Source: Beroe forskalii (Eukaryota > Ctenophora > Nuda > Beroida > Beroidae). From it: a DNA stretch of 64,000 nt. Shown here one piece after another: positions 13,975 through 54,940 of the stretch. The DNA is taken from assembly GCA_011033025.1 (NCBI GenBank), contig WFMF01000014.1, forward strand, positions 186,001 to 250,000. The letters run 5' to 3'. A program made the position numbers and the translations under genes. Below the pieces are notes generated by a model. That model was not told where the DNA came from. It was given only the letters and a program-made list of their open reading frames with translations, and did not search any database. The stretch's first letter is position 1. Every line of letters starts with the position of its first letter.

Positions 13975-14780
13975 ACATTCAGACAGCTAGCACCATATTA
14001 CCTTAATTCAACTTTGATTTGTGGTGATTCAAATACTCAGAACCTCAAGTTTGGGGCAGGCCGGAACACATTTGGTGTTTGGATGCCTGGCTGTAGAGTC
14101 AAGGCTGGAAGAATTGATGAGATTCCTGGACCTGATGAGCTGGATTATCCCTATCGTAACTTAGTAATACACTGTGGGATAAATGATCTTAGAACCAATA
14201 ATCATCTTCCCATTCCAGTCCTCATTGAAAAACTTGAGAACAAATGTCTTGCCCTACATTCTAAATTCCCAGAAATGAAAATTCTCATCAGTCTACTCCT
14301 TCCTACCAAGGATGCTGGTCTCAATTCAATTGTACATGAATTCAACAAGAGAATCTTCAACCTGGTCAGTAAGCATGGAAATATGTGTACCATTTCACAC
14401 CAAAATCTGGCAAATAGCAGAGGCTTATTGTCTCATGATTTAGGTCGCCACCATCAAGATGGAGCAGCCAAGGTTTTTGACACTGTCCATCTGGGATCTA
14501 AAGGTATTTCAATTTTCTGTTCAAATATCAAAACAGCATCATCAAGAAGAAAACTGACAGGAAGTCAAATGATGAATATATCAGAACTAATCACCCTGCT
14601 ACCAGTAAGTCAGTGAACACAGGTTACCAGTTTTGGAATCCCCACCCTGAATACAGACCCAGTAATCGCCCTCTAGCAGCTCACCCTTACCCATGGACAG
14701 GAAATCATCAAGATAGCTTTCCTGTGGGAGGTCTTCAAAACTTTAAACCAAATGATTTGAACAATGGCTATCAACCATAG
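13975..14780 (+). pseudogene. LINE A ORF1 remnant: SGNH/GDSL esterase domain
   Basis: Starts with the tail of the AlkB domain (FRQLAPYYLNS). It continues into an SGNH hydrolase: block I CGDSN with the nucleophile Ser, block III GINDL, block V DTVHLG with the Asp-His pair. SGNH esterases in CR1-like ORF1 proteins are known; their role in retrotransposition is unclear. One missing A near 14,530, compared with element B, throws the frame off, so the open frame ends at 14,616 and not at the 14,778 stop. Intact coding would end NDLNNGYQP, overlapping the ORF2 start. Confidence 0.85.
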
Positions 14781-17700
14781 TATAACCATGACAACTAGAC
14801 GTGAACCTTGTGGGAACTGCTGCAAAGAAATTTATACTCATCATAAAATCTTGACATGTTCATCATGCAACTTAATTTTACATTACAAGTGTGGCAAAAA
14901 TTCCTTTGAATATGACCAAACAATTGATCAATGGCTCTGCCTGGACTGTCATGCAGGAAAATTGGTCACTTATTCTCCATTCAATTCTCTGAGTTTTAAT
15001 AAATATAATCCTGATGACCCTGAAGCTTATGTAGAGATTGAGAAAATAAAAGCTTGTCTAAAAGGATGCAAAGTTATTCCCAACAAATTGGCAAATAGTA
15101 AGAATTTTGGGTTTGATAAAAAGCCTTTGGCCATTTTTTCCAACAACATTGATGGAATGTCACAAAATTTTGACACCTTACTGGCCAAGCTATCCCTTCT
15201 TAGTAATCAATTTGACATTCTTGCAGTAACTGAAACCAATATCAACGAAATCCATAAAAACCTTTATAAAATTCCTGGCTATGATTCCATTTTCAGTTCA
15301 AAATATCCAAATAAGCATAAAGGGAGTGGAATAGGCATTTATTTCAATAAAAGTTTTGCAGGAAATATTATTGATGAGCTTACGATGATAGGCCCTGATA
15401 TTGAAACACTTTTCTTAAAAATGTATCACAAAGGTAAACAGTTCAACTTTGGTGTAGTCTATAGACCTCCCAGTGGCAACTTAAAAAACTTTTACCAACA
15501 ACTTGAAAGAATTTTTAATATGTTATCCAACAAAGCAGCAGATAACAATTCGATTGTATGTGGAGACTTTAATGTTAATTTGTTAAAAAACGACTGTAAC
15601 AAAACTAAATTTGAGAATGTATTTTTTGGCAACTGTTTCATACCAACTATATCACTTCCCACCCATGAAAAACCTGGATGTGACCCTTCATGTATTGATA
15701 ATATTTTTGTTTCAGATGTTGATAATGTTCTAGGTTCTGGTTTGCTACCTGATGTTAAAGTGTCACACCATTACCCAACTATTTGTTTTTATGACATATT
15801 TGACAATGATAATCAAGCTGATAATGTCAATGATAGTGATAACTGTTCTCTGCCACATTATGACTATTGCGAAACTCATATCATTGAATTCAATTCCAAA
15901 CTTTCTGAAAAGCTTTCTATGGACAATTTTAGTGCTGATGAATTAGGTTTTGAAAAATTTATTGATTGCATCAACAACACAATAGAAGACTGTTTCAAAG
16001 TAAATCCACAAAGTTTGAAAAAGTCAAAGCGTAATCGGATAGAGAATCCTTGGATCACAAATGGCCTCATTAACTCAATCAACTATAAAAATTTTCTGTA
16101 CGAAAAATGGAGAAAAAGTAAAAACAAGGGAAGTAAAATGGGGGATTCTGAACTTTATGATAAATACAAAAACTACCGAAAGAAGTTAAGAACTTTAATC
16201 AAAGCTGCTAAACATATGTTTTATTCTAAGAAATTTGACAATTGCCATGGCAATAGTAAAAAAACATGGGAATTAATCAACGAACTCAGGGGAAAAAGTA
16301 TATCTAAATCCAAGTCCTCCTTTCTCGTTAATGGAGAATTGGTTAAGGATAGAAGAGTTATAGCAAATGAATTTAATAAATATTTTGCATCAGTTGCTCA
16401 TGACTTGAATAAAAATGCTTTAAGACCAGAAAATCTTCCAATATCCCCTATTCCTGACTTCTCAACTTATATCAGTGACAGAGTAAATGACAGCCTATTC
16501 TTTGAACCATGTTCACCAGTTGAAATAGAAAAATCATTAACGAATTAGAAAATGGCAAAGCTAGTGATATACCTGTAAGAATTCTCAAGAATTGCATATC
16601 AATTATTAATCCCCATTTGACAAAATTCTACAACAATTTCATTGAATTAGGTATATTTCCAAATATCCTCAAGATTGGCCATAACTCCTGTGTTTAAAAA
16701 GACAATATACAATTGTTCAAAAATTATAGGCCTGTTTCAATGCTACCTTGCTTTGGAAAAATTCTGGAGAAGATCATCTACTCGTTTATATAGTTTTGTT
16801 ACCTCAAAAAATATCTTATATGAAAACCAATATGGTTTCCGTAGTCACCACTCAACCTCACATGCGGTGAACTACTCAGTTGATAAAATAAATGTTAACA
16901 TAGAGAATAAAAACCATGTACTTGGCATATTTATAGATCTAAGTAAAGCATTTGATACCATTTGTCATGATAAACTCCTTGTAAAACTGGAAAATTATGG
17001 CATCAGAGGTACACCACTGAATCTCTTAAAAAGTTACATGACTAATAGGCAACAACTAACTAACTATGATTCTGTTAAATCTGATTTACTGCCTGTTATA
17101 TATGGTGTCCCTCAGGGATCTGTTCTAGGACCATTGCTTTTCATTCTTTATATAAATGATATAGTCAATTGTACTAAACTTGGACACTTTGTAATGTTCG
17201 CTGATGATACAAATATATTTGTTAGTGGAAGTACTGAAGAAGAAGCTTATTCCAAGGCCAATGAGGTGCTTAGAAATGTAAATTTGTATATGATAAATAA
17301 TCAAATGCATGTTAACATTGAAAAGTGTGTGTACATGCATTTTAGACCAAGGCTTAATCACCATGAACAAAAAACTTGTGCCAGAACCAAAATTAGTGGT
17401 TTTGATCACAAACTATTCCTGAACAATAACAAAATCAAAAAACAAATAGAGCACGATACCTAGGAGTTATCATAGATGAAAACTTGAATTGGGAAAGTCA
17501 TCTTGAACATTTGGAACAAAAATTAAACAGTTCAATTATCACAATCAAAAGAATCAGAAAATTCATCCCCCAAGAGCATTTCAATAAACTCTATCACTCA
17601 CTCTTCATATCACACCTAACTTATGGGATATCAGCTTGGGGTTCTGTATCCAATAATAAATTGAAGCCTATATTCAATATCCAAAAGAGATGTTTACGCT

Positions 17701-18212
17701 TGCTATATGGAAAACAATTGAACTTTGATCATGCTGAATTCTATAAAACTTGTGCTAGAACTAGATCAATTGATGAACAATTAGCTCCTAAAGAATATGT
17801 GCTAGAACATACCAAACCTCTATTCACCGAGTTAAAATTCCTAACTGTCCATAATCTACACAAACTTTTCTTACTAAATGAAATTTTTAAAATTAGAAAA
17901 TATAGATATCCAATTCCTTTATATACACTACTCAAAAACTCACCCCAATCAACAAGAAATAATCGAAAAAATAGTATTGTTGTACCAGATTATAACCTTC
18001 ATTCTTCTAGACAACAATTTCTGTACTTTGGCTCCCATGTATGGAATAAATTCAATGATAAAACTGGTCAGTGTGGTACAAACTTTCTCTCTGACCTCTC
18101 CACATCAACCTTTGTTGCAAAAAAGAAGTTCAAAAAATTTATTTTTGACCTTCAGTCATCAGGACATATTGAGCTCTGGGAGAATCGTAACCAAAATTTT
18201 GAATTGCTTTGA
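14764..18212 (+). pseudogene. LINE A ORF2: PHD-like finger, APE endonuclease, reverse transcriptase (frameshifted)
   Basis: The N-terminus has a C4HC3 zinc finger (CGNC, CSSC, HYKC, CLDC). Next is an apurinic-type endonuclease: SNNIDGM, TETN, VCGDFNVN, SHHYPT. The reverse transcriptase follows: RPVSMLPCFGKILE, FIDLSKAFDT, GVPQGSVLGPLLF and FADD. The C-terminal domain ends QNFELL. The protein would nick DNA and copy the element RNA into it. The frame breaks near 16,530, 16,690, 16,785 and 17,440; element B has one or two more bases at each of these places, so sequencing error or recent decay are both possible. The RT resembles the CR1/Rex1 group by eye. Confidence 0.9.
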
Positions 18213-18920
18213 TTCAACCTCAGTTCTTGTGACGTTAAAGTTGCTCAAATAAAGTAGAAACTCAAAAGATATATTATTTATACATTCTGCAGCAGTTCTT
18301 AGATGCCTTCACTTTACCTCAAACCCAATATGGATTTAAAATATTCGTTATGATACACAGAATGAAAATTTTGAAATCTTACTAATGTTATCTTGCATAG
18401 AATGGACATGTATGTTATTTGTATTTTTAACTTATTAATTGTAACTTATTAATTTCAACTAATATATTGATTTTATCAAAGTGAAATTGTTTTTGACTCA
18501 CAGCAAGTAGGTAAATTTCTTTTTGTAAATTCTTATTGAATCTATTGCTGTTGTACCAAGGGTGGTACCCAAGTACCCACAAGTATTTCCTGTAGCCGCA
18601 ACAAAATCCAATTACCGTGATCAATTGCAATACATTTTCCTTAGTTTTTATTCCTGCTTGGTTTGTTTTGTAATGGGTGTTTTTAATTAAATAGTATTTC
18701 ACTATAATGGTTATGCAGCTTGTTAGGATATCCTGACTTTACTTTATTTTATTATTTCAGTTTTTAAATTATTATATCAGTATATTATGTTCATATTAAT
18801 TTAATCTAAATCACAATTGTCATATGACCAGAAAGAATTCAACTGTTCAAATTATGGTGTAATGTGCTACTAAATATAAACTTATTTGTTTTATTAAAAA
18901 ACTTATTTGTTTTATTAAAA

Positions 18921-20790: not shown

Positions 20791-21321
20791 ATGGGTAATG
20801 AACAGTCACTACCACATGACCTGGTTTTGTCATCTCAGTTCAGTGAAGAAGAATTAAGGAGGCTTGGTAAAAGGTTCAAAAAACTTGATATTGACAAAAG
20901 TGGAACTATATCATCAGAAGAATTTATGTCCTTACCAGAGCTACAACAAAATCCTCTTGTGAAAAGAGTAATAGATTTGTTTGACACAGATCGTAATGGT
21001 GAAATCGATTTCAAAGAGTTTGTACAAGGGTTATCACAATTTACAGTGAAGGGTGCTGACAAAGTTTCAAAACTAAAGTTTGCATTTAAAGTCTATGACA
21101 TTGACCAAGATGGATATATTAGTAATGGGGAACTATTTCAAGTCCTCAAGATGATGGTGGGTACTAACTTGAAGGATGTTCAGTTGCAGCAAATTGTTGA
21201 CAAGACTATTCTTTTTGCTGATACAGATTGTGATGGTAAGATATCCTTTGAGGAATTTGTTGCAATGGTTGGCAACAATACTGACTTTCACAATCGAATG
21301 GTTGTTGATGCTGATGTCTAA
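20791..21321 (+). CDS. PPP3R1-like: Calcineurin subunit B, intronless copy
   Basis: A 176-residue protein, the usual length of calcineurin B. It is the Ca2+-binding regulatory subunit that docks on calcineurin A and activates this Ser/Thr phosphatase. MGNE at the start is the N-myristoylation signal. Four complete EF-hand loops begin at Asp33, Asp65, Asp103 and Asp144, each with D-x-D-x-S/N/D-G and a closing Glu at position 12. [26 protein letters not shown] and LQQIVDKTI are nearly identical to the vertebrate protein. The tail is MVVDADV. There is no intron across the whole coding region, unlike most animal PPP3R1 genes, so it may be a retrocopy; the frame is intact and the sequence conserved, which suggests function. 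No poly(A) tract or target duplication is visible. Confidence 0.95.
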
Positions 21322-30879: not shown

Positions 30880-31125
30880 CATTTTGGCCCTTTTAGAACA
30901 CGAATATGTTCCAAAAGTACCAATTTGGCCCTTTTGGAACACGAAGCTATTCCAAAGGGCCATCTTTGGCCCTTTTGGAACACGAAGCTATTCCAAAGGG
31001 CCAATTTGGCCCTTTTGGAACACGGATACTGTTCCAAAAGGGCCAAACGAAAAAATAGGTATCGAATAGGTATCAAATAGTAAATATTCCATATGACTAT
31101 TTTCAATTTGGCCCTTTTAGAACAC
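30880..31125. repeat. Array of tandem GGCCCTTTTGGAACA hairpins
   Basis: Four consecutive hairpins of about 40 bp. Each has a left arm TTGGCCCTTTTGGAACA (first unit: TTTTAG) and a right arm TTCCAAA(A)GGGCCAA with a short loop. An unpaired left arm follows at 31,108-31,125, exactly where the 12-bp array begins. Open frames through it are compositional. Confidence 0.85.
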
Positions 31126-32440
31126 CGTACCCGGGAGTCCTCCGGGAGCCCTCCGGGAGCCCTCCGGGAGTACTCCGAGAGTCCTCCGAGAGTCCTCCGG
31201 TAGTACTCGGGAGTACTCGGGAGTACTCGAGAGTCCCCAGGAGTCCTCCGGGAGTCCCCCCGGGAGTCCCCGGGAGTCCTACGGGAGTCCTACGGGAGTA
31301 CCACGGTAGTACCCCGGGAGTCCTACGGGAGTACCCCGGGAGTCCCCCGGGAGTCCTACGGGAGTACCCCGGGAGTCCTACGGGAGTACCACGGGAGTGC
31401 CACGGGAGTGGCTCGGGAGTCCCCGGGAGTACCCTGGAGTCCTATGGAGTACCCGGGAGTCCCCCGGGATTACCCCGGAGTCCCCCGGAGTCCTACGGGA
31501 GTACCACGGGAGTGCCACGGGAGTACCCCGGGAGTCCTACGGGAGTACCACGGGAGTGCCACGTGGAGGAGTCCCCAGGAGTACCCCTGAGTCCTATTGA
31601 GGGAGTCCCCGGGAGTCCCCTGGAGTCCCCGGGAGTACCCCGGGAGTCCCCCTGAGTCCTACGGGAGTACCCCCGGGAGTGCCACGGGAGTACCCCGGGA
31701 GTGCCACGGAGTACCCCGGGAGTCCCCGGGAGTCCTACGGGAGTACCCCGGAAGTCCTACGGGAGTACCACGGGAGTGCCACGGGAGTACCCCGGGAGTC
31801 CCCCGGGAGTCCTACGGGAGTACCGCGGGAGTGCCCACGGAGTCCTACGGGAGTACCCCGGGAGTCCCCCGGGAGTCCTACGGGAGTACCACGGGAGTAC
31901 CCCGGGAGTCCCCCGGGAGTACCCCGGGAGTCCCCCGAAAGTCCTACGGGAGTACCCCGGGAGTCCCCCGGGAGTCCTACGGGAGTACCACGGGAGTGCC
32001 ACGGGAGTCCTACGGGAGTACCCCGGGAGTCCTACGGGAGTACCCCGGGAGTACCCCGGAAGTCCCCCGGGAGTCCTACGGGAGTACCCCGGGAGTCCCC
32101 CGGGAGTCCTACGGGAGTGCCACGGGAGTCCCCCGGGAGTCCCCCGGGAGTCCTACGGGAGTACCCCGGGAGTCCCCCGGGAGTCCTACGGAGTGCCACG
32201 GGAGTCCCCCGGGAGTCCTACGGAGTACCACGGGAGTGCCACGGGAGTAACCCGAGTCCCCGGGAGTACCCTGGAGTCCCCGGGGCACCCCGGGAGTACC
32301 CCGGGAGTCCTACGGGAGTACCCCGGGAGTCCCCCGGGAGTCCTACGGGAGTACCCCCGGAGGAGTCCTACGGGAGTACCACGGGAGTGCCACGGGAGTA
32401 CCCCGGGAGTCCCCCGGGAGTACCCCGGGAGTACCCTAGC
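31126..32440. repeat. 12-bp GGGAGT(A/C)C minisatellite array
   Basis: About 1.3 kb of 12-bp units CGGGAGTCCCCC, CGGGAGTACCCC, CGGGAGTCCTAC, CGGGAGTACCAC and CGGGAGTGCCAC. They are mixed in longer repeating orders. Because the unit is a multiple of three, several frames stay open for hundreds of codons on both strands. These are not proteins: there is no start context, domain or non-repetitive sequence. Confidence 0.95.
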
Positions 32441-32441
32441 C

Positions 32442-32545
32442 AGACGTTGCCTGCCCCATATTTTTTTCAAAATATGGGACTCTGCGAGTCGGGAAGCGCG
32501 CGCTTCGCGCGCGCGAGGGGGCCAGGCAACGCCTGGCAAGGCATT
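32442..32545. repeat. CG-rich hairpin at the end of the array
   Basis: CAGACGTTGCCTGCCCC and GGGGGCCAGGCAACGCCTGG are inverted partners around CCATATTTTTTTCAAAATATGG and GCGCGCGCTTCGCGCGCGC. TTGCCTGGCCCCC recurs at 60,624, so this belongs to the CG-rich foldback family. Confidence 0.7.
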
Positions 32546-32704
32546 GTCTTATAGATCTTTCAAATCATCATTAATTAATTCAAATCAACAGTCTTTAATG
32601 ATCTTTAAATTCTATTGAAAATCTTGAACCTTCAATGGAATGGGCACCGAAGTGAAATGGTGCTAGATAATTGTTAATATTTGATATTGATCAATCGTAG
32701 ATAC

Positions 32705-34269: not shown

Positions 34270-36411
34270 ATGTCAAATAGTAAAAGTGGCAATAAACGAA
34301 CATCCGGGAGGGGGGCCTCAAATGTGTTTCAGTGTGATAATAAAGAAAAGACCCATGGCAATGTCAATGATAACATTTTGAAAGACCCTCTCATCACCAA
34401 TGGTGAATGTGAAAGATGTCCATTCCAAGGAAATATTGGTAATGAAGTTATTGTTTGTTCTTTATGCCGTAAATCATATCATGCACTGTGTAGAGATAAG
34501 AAAGGTGTTTATTCAGGGAATGCAATCTGTTCAAAAACCTTCTTTGAAATGTTTGGCCCTCTAGCAGCTCACTATAAACACAATTCGTCCAGGTGGGGAC
34601 AGTTTTTGTTTATTTGCCAGAAATGCAACTCTTTATACCCTGGCTTACTCCCTTGTTCAGACTCTGAATCTGATGAAATTGATGTTATAAGCACTCATTC
34701 ACCTGTTAAACCTAATTCTCTGAAAAAGGACTTCAAATGTTCTGAAACTCAAACATTCATTTCTGGCAATTTAAAGGGCTATAATTCTGACAATGAAATA
34801 CAACAGGATAATGATCTTTCATCCCTCATTAAGCTGAATCATGAAATATTAGATCGTATCAAAACTGTTGAAAAGCTATCTAGAAATCAGTCAGATACCT
34901 TCAATAGTGAAGTCAATAAAGTTATCACTGAATTAAAATCCAATTCTATTGCAGTTTGCTCTAATGTTCTCACTCAGGAAAATGGCAATGTAGCTAACAC
35001 TCATGGCAGTGTAGCTAACACTCAGCCATGTTACAAGTTTAATCCAAGTACTTGTCAACCAACAAAAGACTATGTTGAGGATTACCTTAGTGAGACCCAA
35101 TATTCAGAAGTTTTTGATTTCCTAGAAAAGTGTCCTGACCTCAAGACTATCAAGTCAGGTAGTGGAAGCAGAGATGTCTCATACTATGGTGAGTTTGATT
35201 ATCGATATGGGGCCATTCACCACAAGGCAAATCCAATTCCCAAGGTTTTAGAACCTATCATTGAACATTTGTCTGTAAAATACCCAAATACCATTGTCAA
35301 CTCTTGTCTCATCACTAAGTATAGAAATGGAGGTAATGTTTGTCCAAAGCACAGTGATAATGAGCCATTCATAGCTCCAGGTTCTGATATATTCACTTTG
35401 TCAATTGGTGCAGAAAGGTCTATGCAATTCACATCAACATCTGGGGATCTTAAGTCAATCAATTTGGCAAATAACAGCCTTCTCTCATTCTCACGTGCAT
35501 CACAACAGTTTTGGAAGCATGAAATACCAGCAATGGGTTGTTCCAGTGTTCGTTACAGTCTGACATTCAGACAGCTAGCACCATATTACCTTAATTCAAC
35601 TTTGATTTGTGGTGATTCAAATACTCAGAACCTCAAGTTTGGGGCAGGCCGGAACACATTTGGTGTTTGGATGCCTGGCTGTAGAGTCAAGGCTGGAAGA
35701 ATTGATGAGATTCCTGGACCTGATGAGCTGGATTATCCCTATCGAATATTGAACTAATTTATTTAAGTTGTTTTTGTTATTTGTATATATGTGCTATTAC
35801 ACTGTGGGATAAATGATCTTAGAACCAATAATCATCTTCCCATTCCAGTCCTCATTGAAAAACTTGAGAACAAATGTCTTGCCCTACATTCTAAATTCCC
35901 AGAAATGAAAATTCTCATCAGTCTACTCCTTCCTACCAAGGATGCTGGTCTCAATTCAATTGTACATGAATTCAACAAGAGAATCTTCAACCTGGTCAGT
36001 AAGCATGGAAATATGTGTACCATTTCACACCAAAATCTGGCAAATAGCAGAGGCTTATTGTCTCATGATTTAGGTCGCCACCATCAAGATGGAGCAGCCA
36101 AGGTTTTTGACACTGTCCATCTGGGATCTAAAGGTATTTCAATTTTCTGTTCAAATATCAAAAACAGCATCATCAAGAAGAAAACTGACAGGAAGTCAAA
36201 TGATGAATATATCAGAACTAATCACCCTGCTACCAGTAAGTCAGTGAACACAGGTTACCAGTTTTGGAATCCCCACCCTGAATACAGACCCAGTAATCGC
36301 CCTCTAGCAGCTCACCCTTACCCATGGACAGGAAATCATCAAGATAGCTTTCCTGTGGGAGGTCTTCAAAACTTTAAACCAAATGATTTGAACAATGGCT
36401 ATCAACCATAG
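34270..36411 (+). pseudogene. LINE B ORF1: PHD finger, AlkB-like dioxygenase, SGNH esterase
   Basis: The start at 34,270 (MSNSKSGNK) is chosen because fragment D starts equivalently (MSKRDSGKK). Residues 47-119 form a C4HC3 PHD-type finger (CERC, CSLC, HALC, CQKC). Residues 185-235 are helical and charged. Residues 258-440 are an AlkB-family Fe(II)/2-oxoglutarate dioxygenase: YYGEFDYRYGA, ITKYRNGG, iron ligands HSD (His361, Asp363) and His417, SIGAERSMQF, and RYSLTFR (Arg428, Arg434), the RxxxTxR 2OG and substrate motif. From 448 an SGNH hydrolase follows: CGDSN, then GINDL and DTVHLG. AlkB enzymes remove alkyl groups from nucleic acids; action on the element RNA or cDNA is inference. A 55-bp filler at 35,745-35,799 breaks the frame inside the esterase; element A lacks it. 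Confidence 0.88.
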
Positions 36412-39400
36412 TATAACCATGACAACTAGACGTGAACCTTGTGGGAACTGCTGCAAAGAAATTTATACTCATCATAAAATCTTGACATGTTCATCATGCA
36501 ACTTAATTTTACATTACAAGTGTGGCAAAATTCCTTTGAATATGACCAAACAATTGATCAATGGCTCTGCCTGGACTGTCATGCAGGAAAATTGGTCACT
36601 TATTCTCCATTCAATTCTCTGAGTTTTAATAAATATAATCCTGATGACCCTGAAGCTTATGTAGAGATTGAGAAAATAAAAGCTTGTCTAAAAGGATGCA
36701 AAGTTATTCCCAACAAATTGGCAAATAGTAAGAATTTTGGGTTTGATAAAAAGCCTTTGGCCATTTTTTCCAACAACATTGATGGAATGTCACAAAATTT
36801 TGACACCTTACTGGCCAAGCTATCCCTTCTTAGTAATCAATTTGACATTCTTGCAGTAACTGAAACCAATATCAACGAAATCCATAAAAACCTTTATAAA
36901 ATTCCTGGCTATGATTCCATTTTCAGTTCAAAATATCCAAATAAGCATAAAGGGAGTGGAATAGGCATTTATTTCAATAAAAGTTTTGCAGGAAATATTA
37001 TTGATGAGCTTACGATGATAGGCCCTGATATTGAAACACTTTTCTTAAAAATGTATCACAAAGGTAAACAGTTCAACTTTGGTGTAGTCTATAGACCTCC
37101 CAGTGGCAACTTAAAAAACTTTTACCAACAACTTGAAAGAATTTTTAATATGTTATCCAACAAAGCAGCAGATAACAATTCGATTGTATGTGGAGACTTT
37201 AATGTTAATTTGTTAAAAAACGACTGTAACAAAACTAAATTTGAGAATGTATTTTTTGGCAACTGTTTCATACCAACTATATCACTTCCCACCCATGAAA
37301 AACCTGGATGTGACCCTTCATGTATTGATAATATTTTTGTTTCAGATGTTGATAATGTTCTAGGTTCTGGTTTGCTACCTGATGTTAAAGTGTCACACCA
37401 TTACCCAACTATTTGTTTTTATGACATATTTGACAATGATAATCAAGCTGATAATGTCAATGATAGTGATAACTGTTCTCTGCCACATTATGACTATTGC
37501 GAAACTCATATCATTGAATTCAATTCCAAACTTTCTGAAAAGCTTTCTATGGACAATTTTAGTGCTGATGAATTAGGTTTTGAAAAATTTATTGATTGCA
37601 TCAACAACACAATAGAAGACTGTTTCAAAGTAAATCCACAAAGTTTGAAAAAGTCAAAGCGTAATCGGATAGAGAATCCTTGGATCACAAATGGCCTCAT
37701 TAACTCAATCAACTATAAAAAATTTTCTGTACGAAAAATGGAGAAAAAGTAAAAACAAGGGAAGTAAAATGGGGATTCTGAACTTTATGATAAATACAAA
37801 ACTACCGAAAGAAGTTAAGAACTTTAATCAAAGCTGCTAAACATATGTTTTATTCTAAGAAATTTGACAATTGCCATGGCAATAGTAAAAAACATGGGAA
37901 TTAATCAACGAACTCAGGGAAAAAGTATATCTAAATCCAAGTCCTCCTTTCTCGTTAATGGAGAATTGGTTAAGGATAGAAGAGTTATAGCAAATGAATT
38001 TAATAAATATTTTGCATCAGTTGCTCATGACTTGAATAAAAATGCTTTAAGACCAGAAAATCTTCCAATATCCCCTATTCCTGACTTCTCAACTTATATC
38101 AGTGACAGAGTAAATGACAGCCTATTCTTTGAACCATGTTCACCAGTTGAAATAGAAAAAATCATTAACGAATTAGAAAATGGCAAAGCTAGTGATATAC
38201 CTGTAAGAATTCTCAAGAATTGCATATCAATTATTAATCCCCATTTGACAAAATTCTACAACAATTTCATTGAATTAGGTATATTTCCAAATATCCTCAA
38301 GATTGGCCACATAACTCCTGTGTTTAAAAAAGACAATATACAATTGTTCAAAAATTATAGGCCTGTTTCAATGCTACCTTGCTTTGGAAAAATTCTGGAG
38401 AAGATCATCTACTCTCGTTTATATAGTTTTGTTACCTCAAAAAATATCTTATATGAAAACCAATATGGTTTCCGTAGTCACCACTCAACCTCACATGCGG
38501 TGAACTACTCAGTTGATAAAATAAATGTTAACATAGAGAATAAAAACCATGTACTTGGCATATTTATAGATCTAAGTAAAGCATTTGATACCATTTGTCA
38601 TGATAAACTCCTTGTAAAACTGGAAAATTATGGCATCAGAGGTACACCACTGAATCTCTTAAAAAAGTTACATGACTAATAGGCAACAACTAACTAACTA
38701 TGATTCTGTTAAATCTGATTTACTGCCTGTTATATATGGTGTCCCTCAGGGATCTGTTCTAGGACCATTGCTTTTCATTCTTTATATAAATGATATAGTC
38801 AATTGTACTAAACTTGGACACTTTGTAATGTTCGCTGATGATACAAATATATTTGTTAGTGGAAGTACTGAAGAAGAAGCTTATTCCAAGGCCAATGAGG
38901 TGCTTAGAAATGTAAATTTGTATATGATAAGTAATCAAATGCATGTTAACATTGAAAAGTGTGTGTACATGCATTTTAGACCAAGGCTTAATCACCATGA
39001 ACAAAAAACTTGTGCCAGAACCAAAATTAGTGGTTTTGATCACAAACTATTCCTGAACAATAACAAAATCAAAAAAACAAATAGAGCACGATACCTAGGA
39101 GTTATCATAGATGAAAACTTGAATTGGGAAAGTCATCTTGAACATTTGGAACAAAAATTAAACAGTTCAATTATCACAATCAAAAGAATCAGAAAATTCA
39201 TCCCCCAAGAGCATTTCAATAAACTCTATCACTCACTCTTCATATCACACCTAACTTATGGGATATCAGCTTGGGGTTCTGTATCCAATAATAAATTGAA
39301 GCCTATATTCAATATTCAAAAGAGATGTTTACGCTTGCTATATGGAAAACAATTGAACTTTGATCATGCTGAATTCTATAAAACTTGTGCTAGAACTAGA

Positions 39401-39739
39401 TCAATTGATGAACAATTAGCTCCTAAAGAATATGTGCTAGAACATACCAAACCTCTATTCACCGAGTTAAAATTCCTAACTGTCCATAATCTACACAAAC
39501 TTTTCTTACTAAATGAAATTTTTAAAATTAGAAAATATAGATATAAAATAAATAAATAAATATAAATCACTTATAACACGCTTAGACAATCATTAATATG
39601 ACACAAGGAAATATTTTGCCATTCAAGCGTGACCATGTCTTAAGACCAGAAAATATCAGTCCATGATAAATATCCCAACAAATACTTTTCAGTCATTATT
39701 CAACATTATTTCAAACATTATTGAATTCCACTAAATGCA

Positions 39740-42678
39740 GTCTCAAAATAATGGGTCTTAAGGAGTTGTTTGAATGTCCCCTAACTCTGTGCTGCTCCTG
39801 ATGTTATATGGTAAAGAATTCCATGTCCGGGGAGCAATATATGAGAAAGAGGCATCTGTTTTAGAGGCGTGATGGTTGAGGTACTTTAAGGAGGTAAAAA
39901 GTCATTATCAAGTCTTAGACTCACATTTTTGACTTCTCTGACTGATATGAGCTCCTTGAGATATTCAGGAGCTAAGTTATTAAGACACTTGAAAACCAAG
40001 AGGGAAATTTTGAATTTGATTCTGAATTCAACTGGCAGGAAATGAAGTTTTTTTAGGTAAGGCTTGATGTGATCCCATTTCTTCTTGCCACTGAGCTTGA
40101 AAATGAAACGGACAGCATTGTTCTGGAGCTTTTGAAGTCTGTGAACATTTTTCTGAGTGAGTCCTCCATAACAAGCATTACAATAGTCAATCACAGATAG
40201 GATATTAGAATGAACAAGCTGGATCTTGAGTTCATAGCTAAGTTTTGATCCTATTCTTCTGAGGTCCCTAAGATTGAGGTAGCAAATCTGAGAGATGACA
40301 TTGATTTGCTCACTCATATCAAGTTGATGGTCGAAATGGAAACCCAGATTTTTTGCATGCAATGAGGGGGATAATTGTATTTCACCAAAGCTATGTCCAA
40401 GATCTAGCTTCTCAATGGGACTGACATAGTAACCAATGTCCAAGAATTCAGTCTTATCATCATTGAGTTTCATAAAGTTAAGTGCCATCCATTTCTTAAC
40501 ATCTGCCAGACAAAGCTGTATATTTGTGTGGTCAACTATTTCTGAGTCAACATCAAAAGCATAGTATATCTGAGTATCATCTGCATATAAGTGAATAGAA
40601 AATCCATAATTAGTTACAACCTTTTCAAGTTCCTTGGTATAAAGAATGAACAGGAGTGGTCCAAGTATTGACCCTTGTGGTACACCAATATTGAGCAAGC
40701 ATTCAGATGAATAAGAACCTTTAACATTAACCTTGAATTTTCTTTCTGAAAGGTATGACTTTAACCATTTAATAACAATGCCATCTAGTCTATAGTAATG
40801 TTTCAGTCTTTGAAGTAAGATGTCATGATTAATTGTATCAAAGGCTGCACTTAAGTCAAGAAGCAACAGCACAGCATTATTTCTTTTATCCATCATAATG
40901 AGAAGATCATTCTGGATCTTAAGCACAGCTGTTTCGCAGCTATGGAATTTACGATAGGCAGATTGATGTTTTGAGAATAGCCCTTCATTATCCAGAAATT
41001 CTACAAGTTGAATGTGGACTACTTTCTCTATCAACTTAGATATGTAGGGAATATTACTCACTGGCCTGTAGTTACTCAATATATCAGAGTCAAGATTAAA
41101 TTTCTTTAAACTGGGTCTTATTAGAGCTGTTTTCAGTATTGAAGGAAAATCACCAGTTCTCAAAGATTCATTAACAATATAGTGAATGGTTTCAATCAAT
41201 TCTGGCAAGGATGCTTTAAATAGCCACATGGGCAGAACGTCAAGCTCACATGATTTATCTGATAGATTTTTTGCCAGGTCAAGTAACTCCTCAACAGTTA
41301 CTTCACGAAACTCAGTAAATTTTCTAAATTTACTTTGATTGTGCATGCTTTCATCGGAGATTTTATCATTATAGTTGACCAAGTCTTTCTCAATGTTTGA
41401 ATAAATATCCTTCACCTTTTGTCAAAAATGTTTTGAAATCATTTGCTAACAATGTATCATCACTGCAATGAGGTAATTTGCTTGTTCCATATTCCTTATC
41501 CAGAAGGTGGTTAAGAACCTTGTATGTTGCTTTAGGGTTTCCCCTTTGCTAGAGCTAATTTTTTCATTGAAATAAAGGTTTCTAGCTTTATTTATAATGA
41601 TAGCCTTATCAATACACTTCTCATTATAAATTTCGAGCTTGATTGTCTTCTTTGTTTTTATAGAACTTTGTTGAGCCTTTCTAGCATCAATCTTAGCTTT
41701 TTTGCAGGATTCATTCCACCAAGGTGATTGGCTTGTTTTGAACTTCCTTGTAACATAAGGTGCATGCTTATCCAGAACTTGTTTCACAGTTTTTTGATAC
41801 AAGTCAATAGCCTGATCCACAGATGTGAGTTTTTCAATGGTAAATGAACAGAACAAGTCATGTCTAAATTCGTTCAGATCCATTTTCTTAAACTCTCTCA
41901 CATCCTTTGACTCAAAGTTCACTAATTGGCTAGCAGGAGGAGAAATATGGTTGGGGATATCAAAGTATACAAGAAAGTGATCTGATGTTGTACCTGTATC
42001 ACTTTCTACTATCAGATCTTTAAGAGACAAAGCACCTGTACCTGACTCCAAAGTTAATACCAGATCAAGAATTCCCCCTGAATTGTGTGTTGGTTTATTC
42101 ACATGTTGATGGAAGCCTTTACTTTTGCACAATGCTAGGAAATTATTGGCATTTTTATCACCCATATTTTCCACATGAAAGTTGAAATCACCACATATCA
42201 TAGGGGCACCAAATTTTTCAACAACATTATCCAGATATTTCTCAAATTCATCCATGAATTTAAGTATTTTCGTTTCCTCATATTTAGTTTTACATTTAGT
42301 TCTAGTAGTACGGTAAATGACACAGATTCTTGTTGGTGTCTTAGCTGACTTGACTAAACACTCTAGAACTTCAAATGATGTAAATCCTTTGACCACATGA
42401 CTCTCAATTACGACTCTTTTTGGATTGTAAATAAATGCCACTCCACCGCCTTTACCCTTCCTTGGACAGCTTTGAATATCAAACCCAAAATCATGAATTT
42501 CTGAAGAAATTGCTTTGTCTTTAGCTTTGAGCCAAGTCTCTGTTATGCAACAAATATCAATCTTGTTCTGCTTTAGCAATTCTAATGTCCCACAAACCTT
42601 ATTACACATAGATTGAGTATTGAAACATGATGCACGTAAATCAAGATTAGGGCAAGTTGTTTCTGCACCTTTAATCAC
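39740..42678 (-). pseudogene. LINE C ORF2: APE endonuclease and reverse transcriptase, frameshifted
   Basis: Endonuclease: CFNTQSMCNK, TETW, GGGVAFIY, CGDFNFH, SDHFLVYF. Then SPWWNESCKKAKIDARKAQ. RT: NYRPVSNIPYISKLIEK, LLDLSAAFDTINHD, GVPQGSILGPLLFILYT, LYADDTQ, DDKTEF. The C-terminal domain has NLAPEYL and TWNSLPYNIRSS. Two frame changes at about 41,420-41,545 separate endonuclease and RT, and a third at about 39,885 precedes the end. ORF2 is in the -1 frame of ORF1 and lacks an ATG at its start. Motifs place the RT near L2, Crack and Daphne by eye. Confidence 0.87.
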
Positions 42679-44528
42679 ATCACGTTTTTTGAGAGAAATT
42701 CAGTGTTTTCTTTCAAGCGATTGATCTCTCTTAGTATCACTGGACACTTTGAATCACCTGCATTGTGTGATTTACAGGATTCTGCATCATTACCATGCTT
42801 TGATGCCAGACAGCGGACACAGCAATGATTTGACATATCCTTTTTCACTGGACATGTACTAGATTTGTGGTTTTTCATACAAAACATGCATACAGGTGCT
42901 TTGTCTTTGGCTGGACAGTCAACTGAGATATGTCCAAGCATTTGACAGTGATAGCAATGTTTAAAATGGAATCTATCACGAAACTGTTAACGGCTATTAC
43001 CTAGATAAATATTGCCTTGTTGGTTTTGTACAATAGCTGATCTGATAGCAGGAGAAATTTTGAGGCCAATTGTATAAAATTCATTGTTAGCATTCTTGCT
43101 GACATATACAACTTCCAGTGTATGACCCAGCTCATGCAAGTTACGGATGCATGGGTTCTTGGAGATAACCTTGTTCAAAATAAGTTCCTTTTCTTGTGTC
43201 CTTACATCTTCAACATTCTGAGATCTATCTATTTCTTCCAAAACATCATTCAGAACATTATGCAAGCTAACTTTTGGGAGCATTTTGGTTGCATGCTTTG
43301 TCTGATAGCCATGTGCCTGAAGAACTTTAGAGTCATTTAAAACTTTTTCAGTCTCATTCCTTGCTTCCAAGTTTTTAAAGCCAATCACAATTTTCATACT
43401 TTTAGAATTAGCTCGAATGAATTCTACCTGAACATTCTTCAACTTAATTTCTGCTGCTTTCTTTGCATTCTGCATATTCATTTGAGCAGATTCATTATTT
43501 TTATCAGTTGGATACAAAATAAGGACTTCTGTAGCAGATTTATTTGCTGTATTAGTGTACTGTGGGCTATTCACAGTATTAGAATTAGCAGCAACCCTAT
43601 TGGCTGATACTGTTTGACAACCAAGTATTGAAGCATAGCTGATATGATTTGCCTCACTGGAAATTTCCTCTTGGGGAGCACCAGCCTCTGACACAATAGA
43701 ATTTGAAGTCTCAGTCTCACAAACATTTTCATCATTTAAACTCAGTCTAGCATGTGATTGTGCTTCATTTCCATTATCTTGCAAATGTAGGACCTTCTGT
43801 AGCAGAAGCTTTATTTCATCCATTGAACTTGAAAGATTATCAACACGTTTGTCTATCATTTCAATTTTATCATCATATTGTTTATTATTGACCAGCTCAC
43901 AACTCACCAAGCTTTCCTGGGCATTATCACACAGCTGTTCATCTTGCATGACAGGGGATTCCTCACCCTCACTGCTTTCCTCTTCACTGCTTTCATCTTC
44001 ACTGCTTTCATCTGAGCTGGAATCACCTTTGAAGACTGACATGGCACTATCATTTCCACTTTCAAAACAGAGATCTGTAGAAATAACTGTATCATCTTTG
44101 CATGAACAATCAATTTTAGAATCTGATGCTGAAGAAAGATCTTTATTGAGTTGATCAAAGCTTTTGATAAAGTAGATTAGGGCTTTGATAAGGGGATCCT
44201 TGTTAACATATTTGAATGAGTCAAATTCAATTAAATCAGCATCAGTGCTCACAATCTCATCAGTAGTAACATTTCTTTGAAACTTAAAACATGGTATATT
44301 GGAACTTATCTCTGGTTGGGAGGTACCATCATTGGGGTCTTGTCCTTTGGTGGTTGAGTTTGACTTCTTTAGCACTACTTTAACAACCTTTGGAGTAACA
44401 GCATTGTCTTTTTCAACAGCATTATTATCCATTTTGCCATTGACATTCTTGCCTTGGTCATTTACCTGTAACAATGCTCTAACCGAGTCCTCCAGAACCT
44501 TCTCCTTTGAACCATCACCTTGTGACAT
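42675..44528 (-). pseudogene. LINE C ORF1: acidic, coiled-coil, zinc-knuckle RNA-binding protein
   Basis: A 617-codon frame with one internal stop. From the N-terminus it has a basic/Asn-rich region, a Ser/Glu/Asp tract, a heptad-like segment (MIDKRVDNLSSSMDEIKLLL), and a region with RRM-like pattern (TEVLILYPTDK ... SMKIVIGFKN). The C-terminus has zinc knuckles, C-x2-C-x4-H-x4-C first (CYHCQMLGHISVDC). The stop TAA at 42,984-42,986 sits where element F has TAC (NTRYQVKD), a single-base nonsense change. Such ORF1 proteins bind and chaperone element RNA. The end, SKNVM-stop, contains the AAAAAAC heptamer at 42,684-42,690. Confidence 0.85.
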
Positions 44529-45672
44529 GGTACACCTGGTATACCACAGGCAAACACAACAATGTCACAGGGAGGGGGCTCTAGGGTTGTGGATTTCAGA
44601 GTCCTCAGTTAGTTAATTTAATATGTGTTGTGTTGTAAGTTTATATACACTACTCAAAAACTCACCCCAATCAACAAGAAATAATCGAAAAAAGAGTATT
44701 GTTGTACCAGATTATAACCTTCATTCTTCTAGACAACAATTTCTGTACTTTGGCTCCCATGTATGGAATAAATTCAATGATAAAACTGGTCAGTGTGGTA
44801 CAAACTTTCTCTCTGACCTCTCCACATCAACCTTTGTTGCAAAAAGAAGTTCAAAAATTTATTTTTTGACCTTCAGTCATCAGGACATATTGAGCTCTGG
44901 GAGAATCGTAACCAAAATTTTGAATTGCTTTGATTCAACCTCAGTTCTTGTGACGTTAAAGTTGCTCAAATAAAGTAGAAACTCAAAAGATATATTATTT
45001 ATACATTCTGCAGCAGTTCTTAGATGCCTTCACTTTTACCTCAAACCCAATATGGATTTAAAATATTCGTTATGATACACAGAATGAAAATTTTGAAATC
45101 TTACTAATGTTATCTTGCATAGAATGGACATGTATGTTATTTGTATTTTTAACTTATTAATTGTAACTTATTAATTTCAACTAATATATTGATTTTATCA
45201 AAGTGAAATTGTTTTTGACTCACAGCAAGTAGGTAAATTTCTTTTGTAAATTCTTATTGAATCTATTGCTGTTGTACCAAGGGTGGTACCCAAGTACCCA
45301 CAAGTATTTCCTGTAGCCGCAACAAAATCCAATTACCGTGATCAATTGCAATACATTTTCCTTAGTTTTTATTCCTGCTTGGTTTGTTTTGTAATGGGTG
45401 TTTTTAATTAAATAGTATTTCACTATAATGGTTATGCAGCTTGTTAGGATATCCTGACTTTACTTTATTTTATTATTTCAGTTTTAAATTATTATATCAG
45501 TATATTATGTTCATATTAATTTAATCTAAATCACAATTGTCATATGACCAGAAAGAATTCAACTGTTCAAATTATGGTGTAATGTGCTACTAAATATAAA
45601 CTTATTTGTTTTATTAACTTATTTGTTTTATTTTTTAAACTTTACAACACTACTTTATACAATCAAATTTGA

Positions 45673-46758
45673 GGACCCCGAACTGTTGTTTACCTTGTCA
45701 CTAAACCCATGGATGCTTATTTCCAACTAGCTCCAACTCGCAAAAGCTAGATTGACTACTGTAATATGTCTAAGAGAGATAGTGGCAAAAAACAAGCATC
45801 CGGGAGGGGGGCCTCAGATGTGTTTCAGAGTGATAACAAAGAAAAGACCCATGGCAATGTCAATGTTCTTACTTTGAAAGACCCTCTTATCACTGATGGA
45901 AAATGTTGTAGATGCCCCTTCAATGGCAATATTGTTAATGAAGCTATTGCCTGCTCCATATGCCGTAAGTTATTTCATGCCCTGTGCAGAGATAAGAAAG
46001 GTGGGTTTGCTGCTAATGCTATTTGTTCAAAAACTTTCTTTGAAATGTATGTTCGTTTGGATGCAAACCATAAGCAAAATGTATCCAGGTGGGGACAATT
46101 CTTGTTCCTTTGTCAGAGTTGTCATCTGAATTACCCAGGTTTATTTCCAAGCTCAGATTCAGAAGAATTAGATGTTGTTTCCTTGAAATCCCCTGTTAAG
46201 TTTATGCCTCTGAAAAAATCTTTGTGTGCTGAAGTACAAACTGTTATATCAGGAAATATGGAAGGGTATAGTTCTGAAAGTGAAACCAACCAAGACTATG
46301 ATTTGAAAACCCTCACTAAACTCAATCATGAAATACTAGATAATATCAAAACCATTGAAAAATTATCTAAAGAGCAGGCAAAAACATTTAACACTGAAAT
46401 TGGTAAAGTTTTAACTGAGCTGAAATCAAAGCAATTTACTGGCTTCTCTAACCCTCCCATGCAGGAAACTAATGAGATTACATCCAGATTTAAGTTTGAT
46501 GCCACCTCTTGTGAACCAACAAAAGCCTATGAAGAGGGTTTTCTCAATGAAGACCAACACAAACTAGTGTTGGACTTCCTAGAGCAGTGTGGCGACTTCC
46601 AGACTATCAAATCAGGTAGTAGTAGTAGAGAAGTGGCCTACTATGGTGAGTTCAGGTACCGCTATGGTGCTATTCAACATGAAGCTAATCCAGTACCAGA
46701 TGTTTTGCAGCCCATAATTGATCAAATATCATCCAAGTATCCAAAGTCACTAATTAAA
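45673..46758 (+). mobile_element. LINE fragment D (diverged AlkB-LINE family), cut by element E
   Basis: Contains only the 5' half of an ORF1 related to that of B, and stops at 46,758 where the 5' end of element E starts. The missing remainder is not found after E, so it was lost by truncation or rearrangement. It lies directly behind the 3' tail of element B in the same orientation. Confidence 0.8.
45766..46758 (+). pseudogene. LINE D ORF1 fragment: PHD finger and N-terminal half of AlkB domain
   Basis: Starts MSKRDSGKKQASGRGASDVF. It keeps the PHD finger (CCRC, CSIC, HALC, CQSC), the acidic/helical linker and the AlkB N-terminal part (TIKSGSSSREVAYYGEF, RYRYGAIQHEANPVPDVL). It ends after SSKYPKSLI, before the HxD iron motif. 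The protein is clearly collinear with B ORF1 but with many substitutions, so it represents an older or separate subfamily. The few codons after 46,758 belong to element E. Confidence 0.85.
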
Positions 46759-46925
46759 CTTACAACACAACACATATTAAATTAACTGAGGAACCCCAGT
46801 CAAATTTCCTTGGATTTATTGTCTAAAGTTCTGCTTGCAGAGCTTAAACTCAACAGTGAAAGCACTTTGCTTATCCTGTCTGATACCCTAGCCAAAATTT
46901 TCTCTCCTGGGGTTCTTCGGATAGG

Positions 46926-48423
46926 ATGTCACTGTTTCAGGCAAACGTTAATGACAATGGGAATGATGCAGACTCATCAACTTCAGCCCACAATATCCGA
47001 AAGATTAGTGGAGATAGTGTTAATAGTGGATCTGAACCTACTGCCCCAAACTCAGAGATAAGTTCTAGTCCCACTACTGGCTTTAAGTTCAGTAAGAATG
47101 TGTCAACAGATGAAATAGTTAGTTCTGATGCTGATACAGTTGAATTTGACTCATTTAAATATGTGCTAAAGGAGACTGTTGTCAAAGCCTTGTTATACTT
47201 TATGAAAAGTTTTGATGAACTTAATAAGGAATTTTCTTCTATATCAGATTCTAGTGCTTATGATAAGAGTGAGAGTCCATGTAAAGATGATACAGTCATC
47301 TCTACAGATCTTTGTATGGAAAGTGCAGATGAGAATGGGATAACAAACTTGGAGGATGAGTGCAGCTCTAATGACAGCAGTGATGATGAAAGCAGTGAGG
47401 ATGACAAAGATGATGACTTGCTGGATGAGCATGGGTCTAGTATGCATGAAGATTTAGCTTCAACTGGTGAGATTTCAGGTAGAAATAGTAGCTGTGATAA
47501 CAAAGTTGACATGATTGATAAACGAGTTGACAATCTTTCTAAGTCAATAGATGAAATGAAGCTATTACTGCATAAGGTCTTGAATGTCAACAATGATGAG
47601 AATCACTCACATACAGTTAGCAAAATCAATTTTGTTTCAAATGATACTGAACAGAACATATCTGTCCTCCACCTTCAAGACCTAGTTATGCACATATTGC
47701 TGGTTCTAGCACCATATCTGTGAGCCCTGTACAATGTATGAAAAAATCTGACCATACATTAGTTTCTAAAGATACAATAATCAATGGAAAGAAAAGTTGC
47801 TGCTTCAGACCCAAATTCCAAGAATGCTGAAGTTCTTTTGTTAGTCCCTAATGAAAATGTAAGCAGATCAGCTGAGAAAATGAACAATGTTAAGAAAATT
47901 GTTGAGACTAGACTGAAGGACACACAAATTGAATTTGTAAAGGCAAACTCTCAAAGTATGAAAATCATAGTTGGTTTCAAAAGTAAAGAACTCAGAGATA
48001 AGGGAAAAGAAAAAGTTGATTCATGTGGTTCTCTGGATACTTTTGGATATCATACTTTAGCAGGAAGTAAGATGCTGCCAAAAATCTACCTGTCCAATGT
48101 CTCTGAAGAAATTATCAGTGAAGTTGATGCATCCCTGGAAGGATCTGAGAAACGGCACATGGAAAAAGCTGTAATTTTAGATAGAATCCTTGATAAAAAT
48201 CCTGGAGTAGTTGAACTGAGAAGGGCCGGCCACACATTGGAAGTTGTGTACATCAACAGAAATGAGTCCTCAAAAAACAATTTCTATTGGTTTAAAAGTG
48301 TCACCTGCAATAAGGGAGACAATTCTTCAGAATCAAGGAGGTAATTTGTATCTGGGTAACACTCGGTATCAAGTAAAGGACAGGTACCATGTGAAATCCT
48401 GCTATCATTGTCAACTCATTGGG
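46926..48423 (+). pseudogene. LINE E ORF1, 5' part
   Basis: Collinear with C ORF1: FKFSKNVSTDEIVSSDADTVEFDSFKYV, acidic DSSDDESSEDDKDDD tract, coiled-coil MIDKRVDNLSKSIDEMKLLL, RRM-like AEVLLLVPNENV ... MKIIVGFKSK, up to CYHCQLIG where the insert begins. Compared with F it has one-base indels at about 47,667 (C run), 47,790 (A run) and 48,275 (A run), each breaking the frame. Start chosen at MSLFQANVNDN by alignment with C; uncertain. Confidence 0.8.
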
Positions 48424-51113: not shown

Positions 51114-51372
51114 GCATATATCCACAGATTGTCCAAATAAAAATAGTCCCCCAGTGTGTTTGTTTTGTATGGGGAAGCATAGATCAGCTGCATGCTTTTA
51201 TAAGGAAGATAAGGCTAGACATTGTTGTGCAAGATGCCTTGATTCAGCACAAAGTAATGATGCAGAAAATTATAAGACACATAATGCTGGTGATGCTTCA
51301 TGCCCTGTAACACTCAGAGAGATTGAAAGATTGAAAGGGAATACTGATCTGACCTCAAAAAACGTGATGTGA
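51114..51372 (+). pseudogene. LINE E ORF1, 3' part (zinc knuckles and slippery site)
   Basis: Continues the protein after the insert: second knuckle CLFCMGKHRSAAC, then CCARCLDSAQ ... H ... CP, ending LTSKNVM-stop. The AAAAAAC heptamer at 51,357-51,363 is in the X-XXY-YYZ phase of this frame, three codons before the TGA at 51,370-51,372. Confidence 0.82.
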
Positions 51373-54300: not shown

Positions 54301-54523
54301 TTGATTAAATTAAAGTTAGGTATGGTGGGTATTTTATATTTTGTAATATTCTATATTAGATGAAATTTTCCTTGGGCACATTTTTGACATGAAACACTTT
54401 TGCTATCTGAGCCTTTGAGTTTAGTTTTAGTCACGCTTAAATGGCTAGAGTAGTTCCCTCCTAGATATCTATTTGACAATGTCTAAGCGTGTAATAAATG
54501 TTCTAATTTATTTATTTTATTTA

Positions 54524-54940
54524 TGAATCTAACACCCCCACACAACCACGCAAATCTACTGACAGTTTCTGAATTTAATAAAATTCCATCTTCAGATCTC
54601 TGTGTGAATGTTAATCATCCTGAGTAAAATGAGGAAAAGGGTGAGGGTTAAAAACATTTAATGTGATATGAAAATGCTGGTAAAACTAATACAGAACATG
54701 TGAAGATTCTGAACGTGAAAATGTAATCTTGTGAAACAAATCTTTACACTGAAGGGTAGCCTATCATTAATATTTATAAATATATTTGATATGATTTGAT
54801 TGTAAAGTGCCGAAAAATTTATTAAACGTTGTTTCTCTATTCAACGTTGTTTCTCTGTGAAAAATGACTGTTATTGTGTATGCAAGGATTCTAGTGTGAT
54901 GGTGATGAAAGTATAAAAAATAAAGTTTAAAAGTTTAAAA
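54524..54940. other. Spacer between LINEs E and F, left part
   Basis: AT-rich unique-looking sequence. It does not continue fragment D. AACGTTGTTTCTCT is repeated directly at 54,828-54,858. No gene seen. Confidence 0.4.

Follow-up and report, generated by a model that had tools for sequence, protein, structure and literature searches.

An AlkB-like dioxygenase domain in the first open reading frame of a ctenophore LINE, with a possible role in clearing methyl lesions

Can a long interspersed nuclear element (LINE) carry an AlkB-type dioxygenase of its own, and what might such an enzyme do for it? The question is raised by positions 34270-36411 (forward strand) of a stretch of 64,000 nucleotides from the ctenophore Beroe forskalii (GCA_011033025.1, contig WFMF01000014.1, positions 186,001 to 250,000), hereafter called the window, where an earlier note, made from the sequence alone, had read a PHD finger, an AlkB-like dioxygenase and an SGNH esterase in the first open reading frame (ORF1) of a LINE. 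The element, here called AlkB-LINE, is an APE-type non-LTR (long terminal repeat) retrotransposon, with an endonuclease and a reverse transcriptase (RT) downstream of ORF1 on the same strand. Judged by its sequence, the AlkB domain is real and far beyond a chance match. We assign a probability of roughly 0.45 to the overall reading that AlkB-LINE represents a large and old group of LINEs, seemingly still active, with a new type of ORF1 (finger, helix, AlkB, SGNH esterase), that it clears methyl lesions which would block its RT, and that one ancient fusion spread over many subfamilies.

Conservation is given for two alignments: A1 (44 rows) comprises the window sequence and the proteins P0001-P0043 from other data sets, with P0044-P0049 left out, and A2 (39 rows) comprises ORF1 of another locus of the assembly, L035, and 38 of the P proteins. 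The features of ORF1 in the window are as follows.

34270..35757, + strand: first open part of ORF1, 495 amino acids (aa), with PHD-like finger, helix, AlkB domain and start of the SGNH esterase
34408..34626, + strand: PHD-like C4HC3 finger, C47 C50 C63 C66 H71 C74 C116 C119 (Pfam match below cut-off)
34813..34959, + strand: long single helix, residues 182-230 (AlphaFold model)
35041..35589, + strand: AlkB-like 2-oxoglutarate (2OG)-Fe(II) dioxygenase domain, residues 258-440 (PF13532, AlphaFold, Foldseek)
35350..35358, + strand: iron ligands H361 and D363 (HSD), followed by the invariant E365 (44/44 rows)
35518..35520, + strand: distal iron ligand H417 (44/44 rows)
35551..35571, + strand: RYSLTFR, including R428 and R434 (44/44 rows)
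35611..35622, + strand: SGNH block I, GDSN, with the catalytic Ser (44/44 in A1, 39/39 in A2)
35755..35766, + strand: two in-frame stops, 35755-35757 and 35764-35766 (sequence)
35767..36411, + strand: remaining SGNH esterase and ORF1 C-terminus, 214 residues, phase unchanged (profile of relatives against 4c1b)
35806..35817, + strand: SGNH block III, GIND (Asn 39/39 in A2)
36109..36120, + strand: SGNH block V, DTVH (Asp 37/39, His 38/39 in A2)

The residue numbers given previously for the AlkB ligands (H361, D363, H417, R428-R434) are correct, counting from the methionine at 34270. Finger, AlkB domain and esterase had also been placed in one frame; they do share a single reading phase, but 34270-36411 is interrupted by the two stops, which separate the GDSN block of the esterase from its GIND block. 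The window copy of ORF1 is broken.

Regarding the AlkB domain, Pfam gave a match to PF13532 (2OG-FeII_Oxy_2) over residues 309-434 (E 3.5e-15, 57.2 bits against a curated cut-off of 31.2), and the ligand set was complete, as claimed, with the HxD...H iron triad and the RxxxxxR motif (H361, D363, H417, R428, R434). In AlkB proteins the latter motif binds 2-oxoglutarate. Compared with the PDB as a single sequence, the window ORF1 matched ALKBH2 (E 7.5e-9), ALKBH3 (3.2e-7), ALKBH8 (0.0013) and E. coli AlkB (0.09), whereas the profile of A1 reached 1.3e-22 for ALKBH3 and 1.5e-22 for ALKBH2. The structural comparison with 2OG-Fe(II) oxygenases, proposed earlier as a check, gave a match with AlphaFold and Foldseek. 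In the AlphaFold2 model of the window sequence most of the AlkB part, in blocks from residue 261 on, has a predicted local distance difference test (pLDDT) score above 90, and Foldseek placed it with human ALKBH2 (E 1.0e-16, template modelling (TM) score on target 0.74) and with chains of ALKBH3 (0.68-0.77). The model of the unbroken 687-aa ORF1 of L035 comprises the finger (less certain), a helix at 176-221, the AlkB domain and the esterase, the last two mostly with pLDDT >90; its best fold matches were again ALKBH3 and ALKBH2 (ALKBH3 chains, TM on target 0.68-0.79). The models thus support a predicted double-stranded beta-helix fold of the AlkB type.

That the ORF1 AlkB domain is an active ALKBH2/3-like demethylase within the ribonucleoprotein particle (RNP) of the element, clearing lesions of the N1-methyl-A (m1A) and N3-methyl-C (m3C) type from the RNA or complementary DNA (cDNA) of the element, has in our estimate about an even chance. 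ALKBH2 and ALKBH3 act on N1-methyl-A and N3-methyl-C, modifications that block base pairing and can stall RTs, and titles of PDB entries among the Foldseek matches name these lesions. Since the AlkB domain is nearest to ALKBH2/3, it would be likely to act on these two modifications, in RNA or cDNA that is single-stranded. We envisage that the ORF1 protein (ORF1p) would coat the element RNA and oligomerise through its helix, and that the AlkB domain would oxidatively strip methyl groups of the N1-methyl-A/N3-methyl-C type from the base-pairing face of this RNA or, alternatively, of the first cDNA strand as it arises by target-primed reverse transcription. Methyl clearance would keep the RT of the element from stalling, clearance of the template being the simplest advantage, and reverse transcription would thereby become tolerant of alkylation or host marking. 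The esterase would serve membrane association, as proposed for ZfL2-1, a zebrafish L2 element. Interference of nucleotide modifications with cDNA synthesis by RTs is described for tRNA in a passage of PMC12140624.

The same fold evidence bears on the alternative that the domain erases N6-methyl-A (m6A) and so frees the element RNA from host readers, as proposed for an orchid Ty3/Gypsy element, whose ALKBH5-like protein demethylates RNA in vitro according to passages of PMC9289625. The nearest structures by sequence and fold are, however, ALKBH2 and ALKBH3, and ALKBH5 is much weaker: it first appeared at rank 46 (E 2.7e-10) in the fold search with the L035 model, was absent among the best 50 rows of the search with the window model, and was absent from the PDB sequence and profile matches at the thresholds used. 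In addition, the invariant glutamate of HxDxE aligns with a glutamate in both ALKBH2 and ALKBH3. An m6A eraser is in our view unlikely; repair or m1A removal, named together with m6A-type marks in the earlier note, is favoured by the nearness to ALKBH2/3, and the m6A option of that note less so.

Regarding the C4HC3 finger, the eight ligands were present in all 20 rows tested (window and P0001-P0019), but the PHD profile matched residues 47-76 only below the cut-off (E 0.0043, 17.5 bits against 24), and Pfam at E 0.05 reported no PHD for the L035 ORF1. Nine possibly incomplete relatives (P0023-P0030 and P0033, 486-617 aa) have no finger by pattern and retain the AlkB domain. The helix at 182-230 of the window model (pLDDT 67-94 by blocks of ten) is a possible coiled coil for self-association. 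The finger gives some room to the idea that the enzyme acts on host targets (mRNA, tRNA, or chromatin via the finger) instead of its own RNA, and PHD domains elsewhere recognise modified histones (passages of PMC4120745). With a PHD similarity below threshold, and with an AlkB domain kept in the nine proteins lacking the finger, so that the coupling of the two may not be obligatory, we hold action on host targets to be quite unlikely.

Conservation and selection speak to whether catalysis is retained. H361, D363, E365, H417, R428 and R434 are invariant in A1 (44/44), with identity to the window sequence down to 23%. In the genomic loci the five ligand positions are covered completely by 27 rows, of which 25 retain the full set (138 of 140 covered cells); here L023/L024 and L026/L028 overlap the same places. 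L001-L022 were excluded, all but L015 repeating L031-L050 and the window, and L015 ending before the ligands. The loss of the His-Asp-His ligands in most copies, raised earlier as a concern, is thus not seen. The ratio of non-synonymous to synonymous substitution rates (dN/dS), a comparison also proposed earlier, shows purifying selection on the AlkB part: it was 0.07 for L035/L036 and 0.09 for L045/L050, and six AlkB pairs with dS <1.5 ranged from 0.07 to 0.13 (with a dS of only 0.02, L034/L042, at 0.13, carries no weight). For L035/L036 and L045/L050, respectively, the values were 0.20 and 0.38 in the linker, 0.12 and 0.03 in the finger region and 0.07 and 0.07 in the esterase start; for L035/L036 the RT gave 0.10 and the endonuclease 0.16. 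The ligand counts weigh on the proposal that catalysis has been lost and that the AlkB fold is a single-strand nucleic-acid-binding module of ORF1p, replacing the RRM or zinc knuckle. Pfam indeed reported neither an RRM nor a CCHC domain in the ORF1s scanned, and PDB titles attest nucleic-acid binding by AlkB folds, but binding alone would not demand that the iron and 2-oxoglutarate ligands be kept in 44/44 rows at identities as low as 23%, which makes a binding-only module distinctly improbable.

The esterase blocks GDSN, GIND and DxxH follow the AlkB domain, as had been claimed. In A2 the residues retained are Ser (39/39), Gly (39/39), Asn (39/39), Asp (37/39) and His (38/39), and the profile of A1 matched the structure of the ZfL2-1 ORF1 esterase, 4c1b, with E 3.1e-5. 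When the esterase part was compared with the PDB as a single sequence there was no match, 4c1b being reached by the profile alone; Pfam GDSL was seen in relatives below threshold only, and neither L035 nor the window gave such a match. The spacings in L035 and ZfL2-1 are 20 vs 22 (S-G), 51 vs 52 (S-N) and 3 vs 3 (D-H), and disagree for N-D (99 vs 84); the equivalence of the Gly residues in the two esterases is inferred from the sequences.

The linkage of ORF1 to an RT was assessed in the assembly (216 Mb, 1134 contigs). The ORF1 search gave 90 matches (86 of 395 candidates scored), which, after fragments of one place had been merged, correspond to at least 78 ORF1 places; 35 of the 78 have an open frame of at least 600 aa with no stop within the match. 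An RT lies 1.5-7 kb downstream on the same strand in at least 31 of the 78 places, compared with one upstream on the same strand and one downstream on the opposite strand; as 132 of 2604 candidates were scored in the RT search, the linkage counts are lower bounds. In the window, too, an endonuclease and an RT follow the frame that begins at 34270, which is therefore ORF1 of a LINE, as the earlier note had held. Six of 20 regions retrieved from the assembly have an ORF1 of >600 aa and an ORF2 of at least 1000 aa, and AlkB and RT distances correlate at 0.95 (15 pairs, six loci), as expected if both travel together.

A family search of the assembly with PF13532 (150 of 189 candidates scored) gave at least 150 matches above the cut-off, 64 of which overlap the 78 ORF1 places and 86 of which do not; some of the latter are presumably host ALKBH genes. 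For at least 31 of the 150 an RT lies downstream, vs 0, 1 and 2 in three controls, and 23 of these 31 pairs are spaced 2.7-3.4 kb; the PF13532-RT and ORF1-RT counts overlap and are thus not independent. For annotators, the PF13532 matches could pass for an expansion of the ALKBH gene family. Two of the PF13532 matches (C847:366411-366803 and C225:193073-193480) lie inside very long frames of 2026 and 1169 aa, which exceed the longest ORF1 frame (859 aa) and possibly belong to a different kind of AlkB-bearing element or to a fused ORF.

In a 1144-aa ORF2 from L035 the only Pfam matches were RVT_1, Exo_endo_phos and Exo_endo_phos_2, and RNase H was absent (E up to 0.05), as is usual for the CR1/L2 groups. 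Of the 120 RT relatives listed, one alone bears a species name; it comes from Mnemiopsis leidyi and is 58% identical. Compared with the PDB, part of the RT had just three weak matches, to retron-type/group II RTs (E 0.012-0.029), and NCBIfam gave a group II RT match below cut-off. COX1 lies on contig C1134 of the assembly.

Outside this assembly, 44 proteins from other data sets match ORF1, all carrying PF13532. P0044 is a stand-alone fungal AlkB without esterase; of the remaining 43, GDSN is found by pattern in 40 and G[ILV]ND likewise in 40, and P0041-P0043 have a variant serine block. Of 67 sequences, 58 share a spacing of 14 residues between TFR and the catalytic DS[N/I], one has 27 and eight lack the pattern; this constant junction suggests that AlkB and esterase were joined by a single fusion. 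In a tree with three cellular AlkBs (pieces of human ALKBH2 and ALKBH3, and P0044), these are separated from all LINE AlkBs by a branch with 100/100 support. The topology is compatible with one capture of AlkB, three cellular rows being too few as proof, and the rows of P0036, P0041, P0043 and ALKBH3 have long branches. The fusion had been considered earlier as a possible event of this locus only; it instead recurs at tens of loci, and other data sets contain divergent relatives. That an AlkB gene lies beside or inside a LINE at one locus by chance or assembly artefact, a reading to which the broken window copy lends itself, is refuted by the at least 78 ORF1 places, by the 43 homologues in other data sets besides P0044 (GDSN in 40) and by the shared junction spacing.

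In the AlkB tree L044 interleaves with P0010, and L045, L046 and L050 with P0012; on this sequence evidence, AlkB-LINE subfamilies may predate the split of their hosts or have moved between hosts. P0023 and P0030, AlkB-esterase ORF1 proteins, were deposited as proteins of Moritella metagenome-assembled genomes. Their contigs are about 2 kb long and most likely represent eukaryotic LINE DNA misbinned with bacteria. A scan of IMG/VR with two peptide patterns from A2 (55 stretches) and one of GTDB contigs with two patterns of a subgroup alignment, A3 (49 stretches), both of which see pattern carriers only, returned no relative; on these scans a viral origin and a source in prokaryote genomes were rejected.

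Several points weigh against the favoured reading of the ORF1 AlkB domain as a methyl-clearing enzyme. Demethylase activity and substrate are inferred from sequence and fold, and at about 25% identity the resemblance to ALKBH2/3 does not fix a substrate. Residue 364, which adjoins the ligand Asp, varies in A1 (N in 25, D in 17, other in 2 of 44). The homologues were found by shared words, so that the conservation counts lean towards conserved members, and in most dN/dS pairs the silent sites have reached saturation. No RT partner was seen among those scored for 47 of the 78 ORF1 places, which the partial scoring of RTs may in part explain. A domain-only search for a cellular donor, with 24 candidates, yielded seven proteins, among which no host ALKBH gene could be recognised. 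If the reading is true, methyl marks on RNA or DNA would be linked directly to target-primed reverse transcription, and a testable prediction follows: the cognate RT should read through m1A and m3C when the AlkB domain is present.

The rest of the AlkB-LINE copy and its further copies in the window are as follows.

36478..37752, + strand: ORF2 APE-type endonuclease, frame broken at start (PF03372, E 5.6e-7)
37828..39559, + strand: ORF2 reverse transcriptase, two overlapping frames (PF00078, E 3.1e-18 and 3.2e-14)
about 39545..44639, - strand: a different LINE, inserted (ORF2 39886-42699; upstream ORF 42987-44564; Pfam and sequence comparison)
44640..45632, + strand: 3' part of the AlkB-LINE copy, resuming past the insertion (98.8% to 17918-18916)
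13975..18916, + strand: second AlkB-LINE copy, 5'-truncated, beginning at the last AlkB-domain residues (98.4% over 3987 columns, 98.8% over 1000)
45751..46785, + strand: third copy, 5' part only, to about ORF1 residue 343 (tblastn, 59%)

ORF2 of the window copy is thus also broken and is split by the opposite-strand LINE, a nested insertion whose ORF2 has an APE endonuclease and an RT; a Pfam scan of its upstream ORF gave no match. Another LINE, with a CCHC-type ORF1, makes up the two long opposed arms of an inverted repeat of 99.4-99.5% identity (47386-48423 with 58861-59900, and 51113-54524 with 55440-58862), which may stem from a recent inverted duplication or from the assembly. A minisatellite (31100-32550, by eye) with open frames in several phases and GVPRESPGSPTGVPRE-like repeats precedes AlkB-LINE by about 2 kb. 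Long open frames at 2581-4356 (+; Dpy19-family protein, PF10034, E 2.6e-124) and 20782-21321 (+; EF-hand protein, calcineurin B-like by eye) are probable host genes, and 62327-62746 (-) encodes a C-terminal fragment of a retrotransposon-type integrase (Integrase_p58_C, E 9.9e-11).

The closest known systems include ORF1s of CR1, L2 and Jockey LINEs, in which PHD and esterase are known modules and domain shuffling is known (passages of PMC4120745); the statement of the earlier note that both domains occur in ORF1s of CR1-like LINEs is borne out by these passages and by parts of PMC3905857. In the table passages of PMC4120745, which distinguish ORF1 types I-V, PHD and esterase belong to different subgroups, whereas AlkB-LINE has a PHD-like finger together with an esterase; the word oxygenase is absent from the main text of that paper. 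Judged by sequence, AlkB-LINE has the Ser, Gly, Asn, Asp and His of an SGNH hydrolase that mark the esterase type (type IV), and the PHD-AlkB-esterase arrangement would be a further type beyond I-V. ZfL2-1 resembles it in carrying in ORF1p the esterase matched by the profile, in the order of the catalytic residues (agreeing with parts of PMC3905857) and in a long upstream helix, predicted in the L035 model and a coiled coil in ZfL2-1. Its ORF1p is, however, described as coiled coil and esterase, whereas that of AlkB-LINE has an N-terminal PHD-like finger and, immediately before the esterase, an AlkB domain. Bdelloid LTR elements, too, contain GDSL ORFs (passages of PMC5408684). AlkB is absent from the main text of two papers on extra retroelement domains (PMC6338049, PMC5408684), and where AlkB and retrotransposons appear together in papers on krill and tubeworms, the passages are about host alkB2/ALKBH2. 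No AlkB in a LINE was recognised among the matches listed from the open PMC literature, and a mention may exist in Repbase or in subscription papers, which lie beyond that scope.

Capture of AlkB by other replicators is known. The Ty3/Gypsy element of the orchid Phalaenopsis is likewise a retrotransposon with a captured AlkB-family dioxygenase (passages of PMC9289625), but it is an LTR element with an ALKBH5-like protein in a separate ORF, whereas the domain of AlkB-LINE lies within ORF1, is ALKBH2/3-like and is fused to an esterase. Plant RNA viruses of the Alphaflexi-, Betaflexi- and Closteroviridae (as cited in passages of PMC9289625) share with it a built-in AlkB in a replicator with an RNA genome; in these viruses, however, the domain lies inside long polyproteins or replicases, without LINE machinery. 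Virus AlkB proteins appear, at 12-24% identity, among the matches listed from a fold search of viral models. AlkB-LINE would add a further, apparently separate capture of AlkB by an RNA-based replicator, beside those of the plant RNA viruses and the orchid LTR element.

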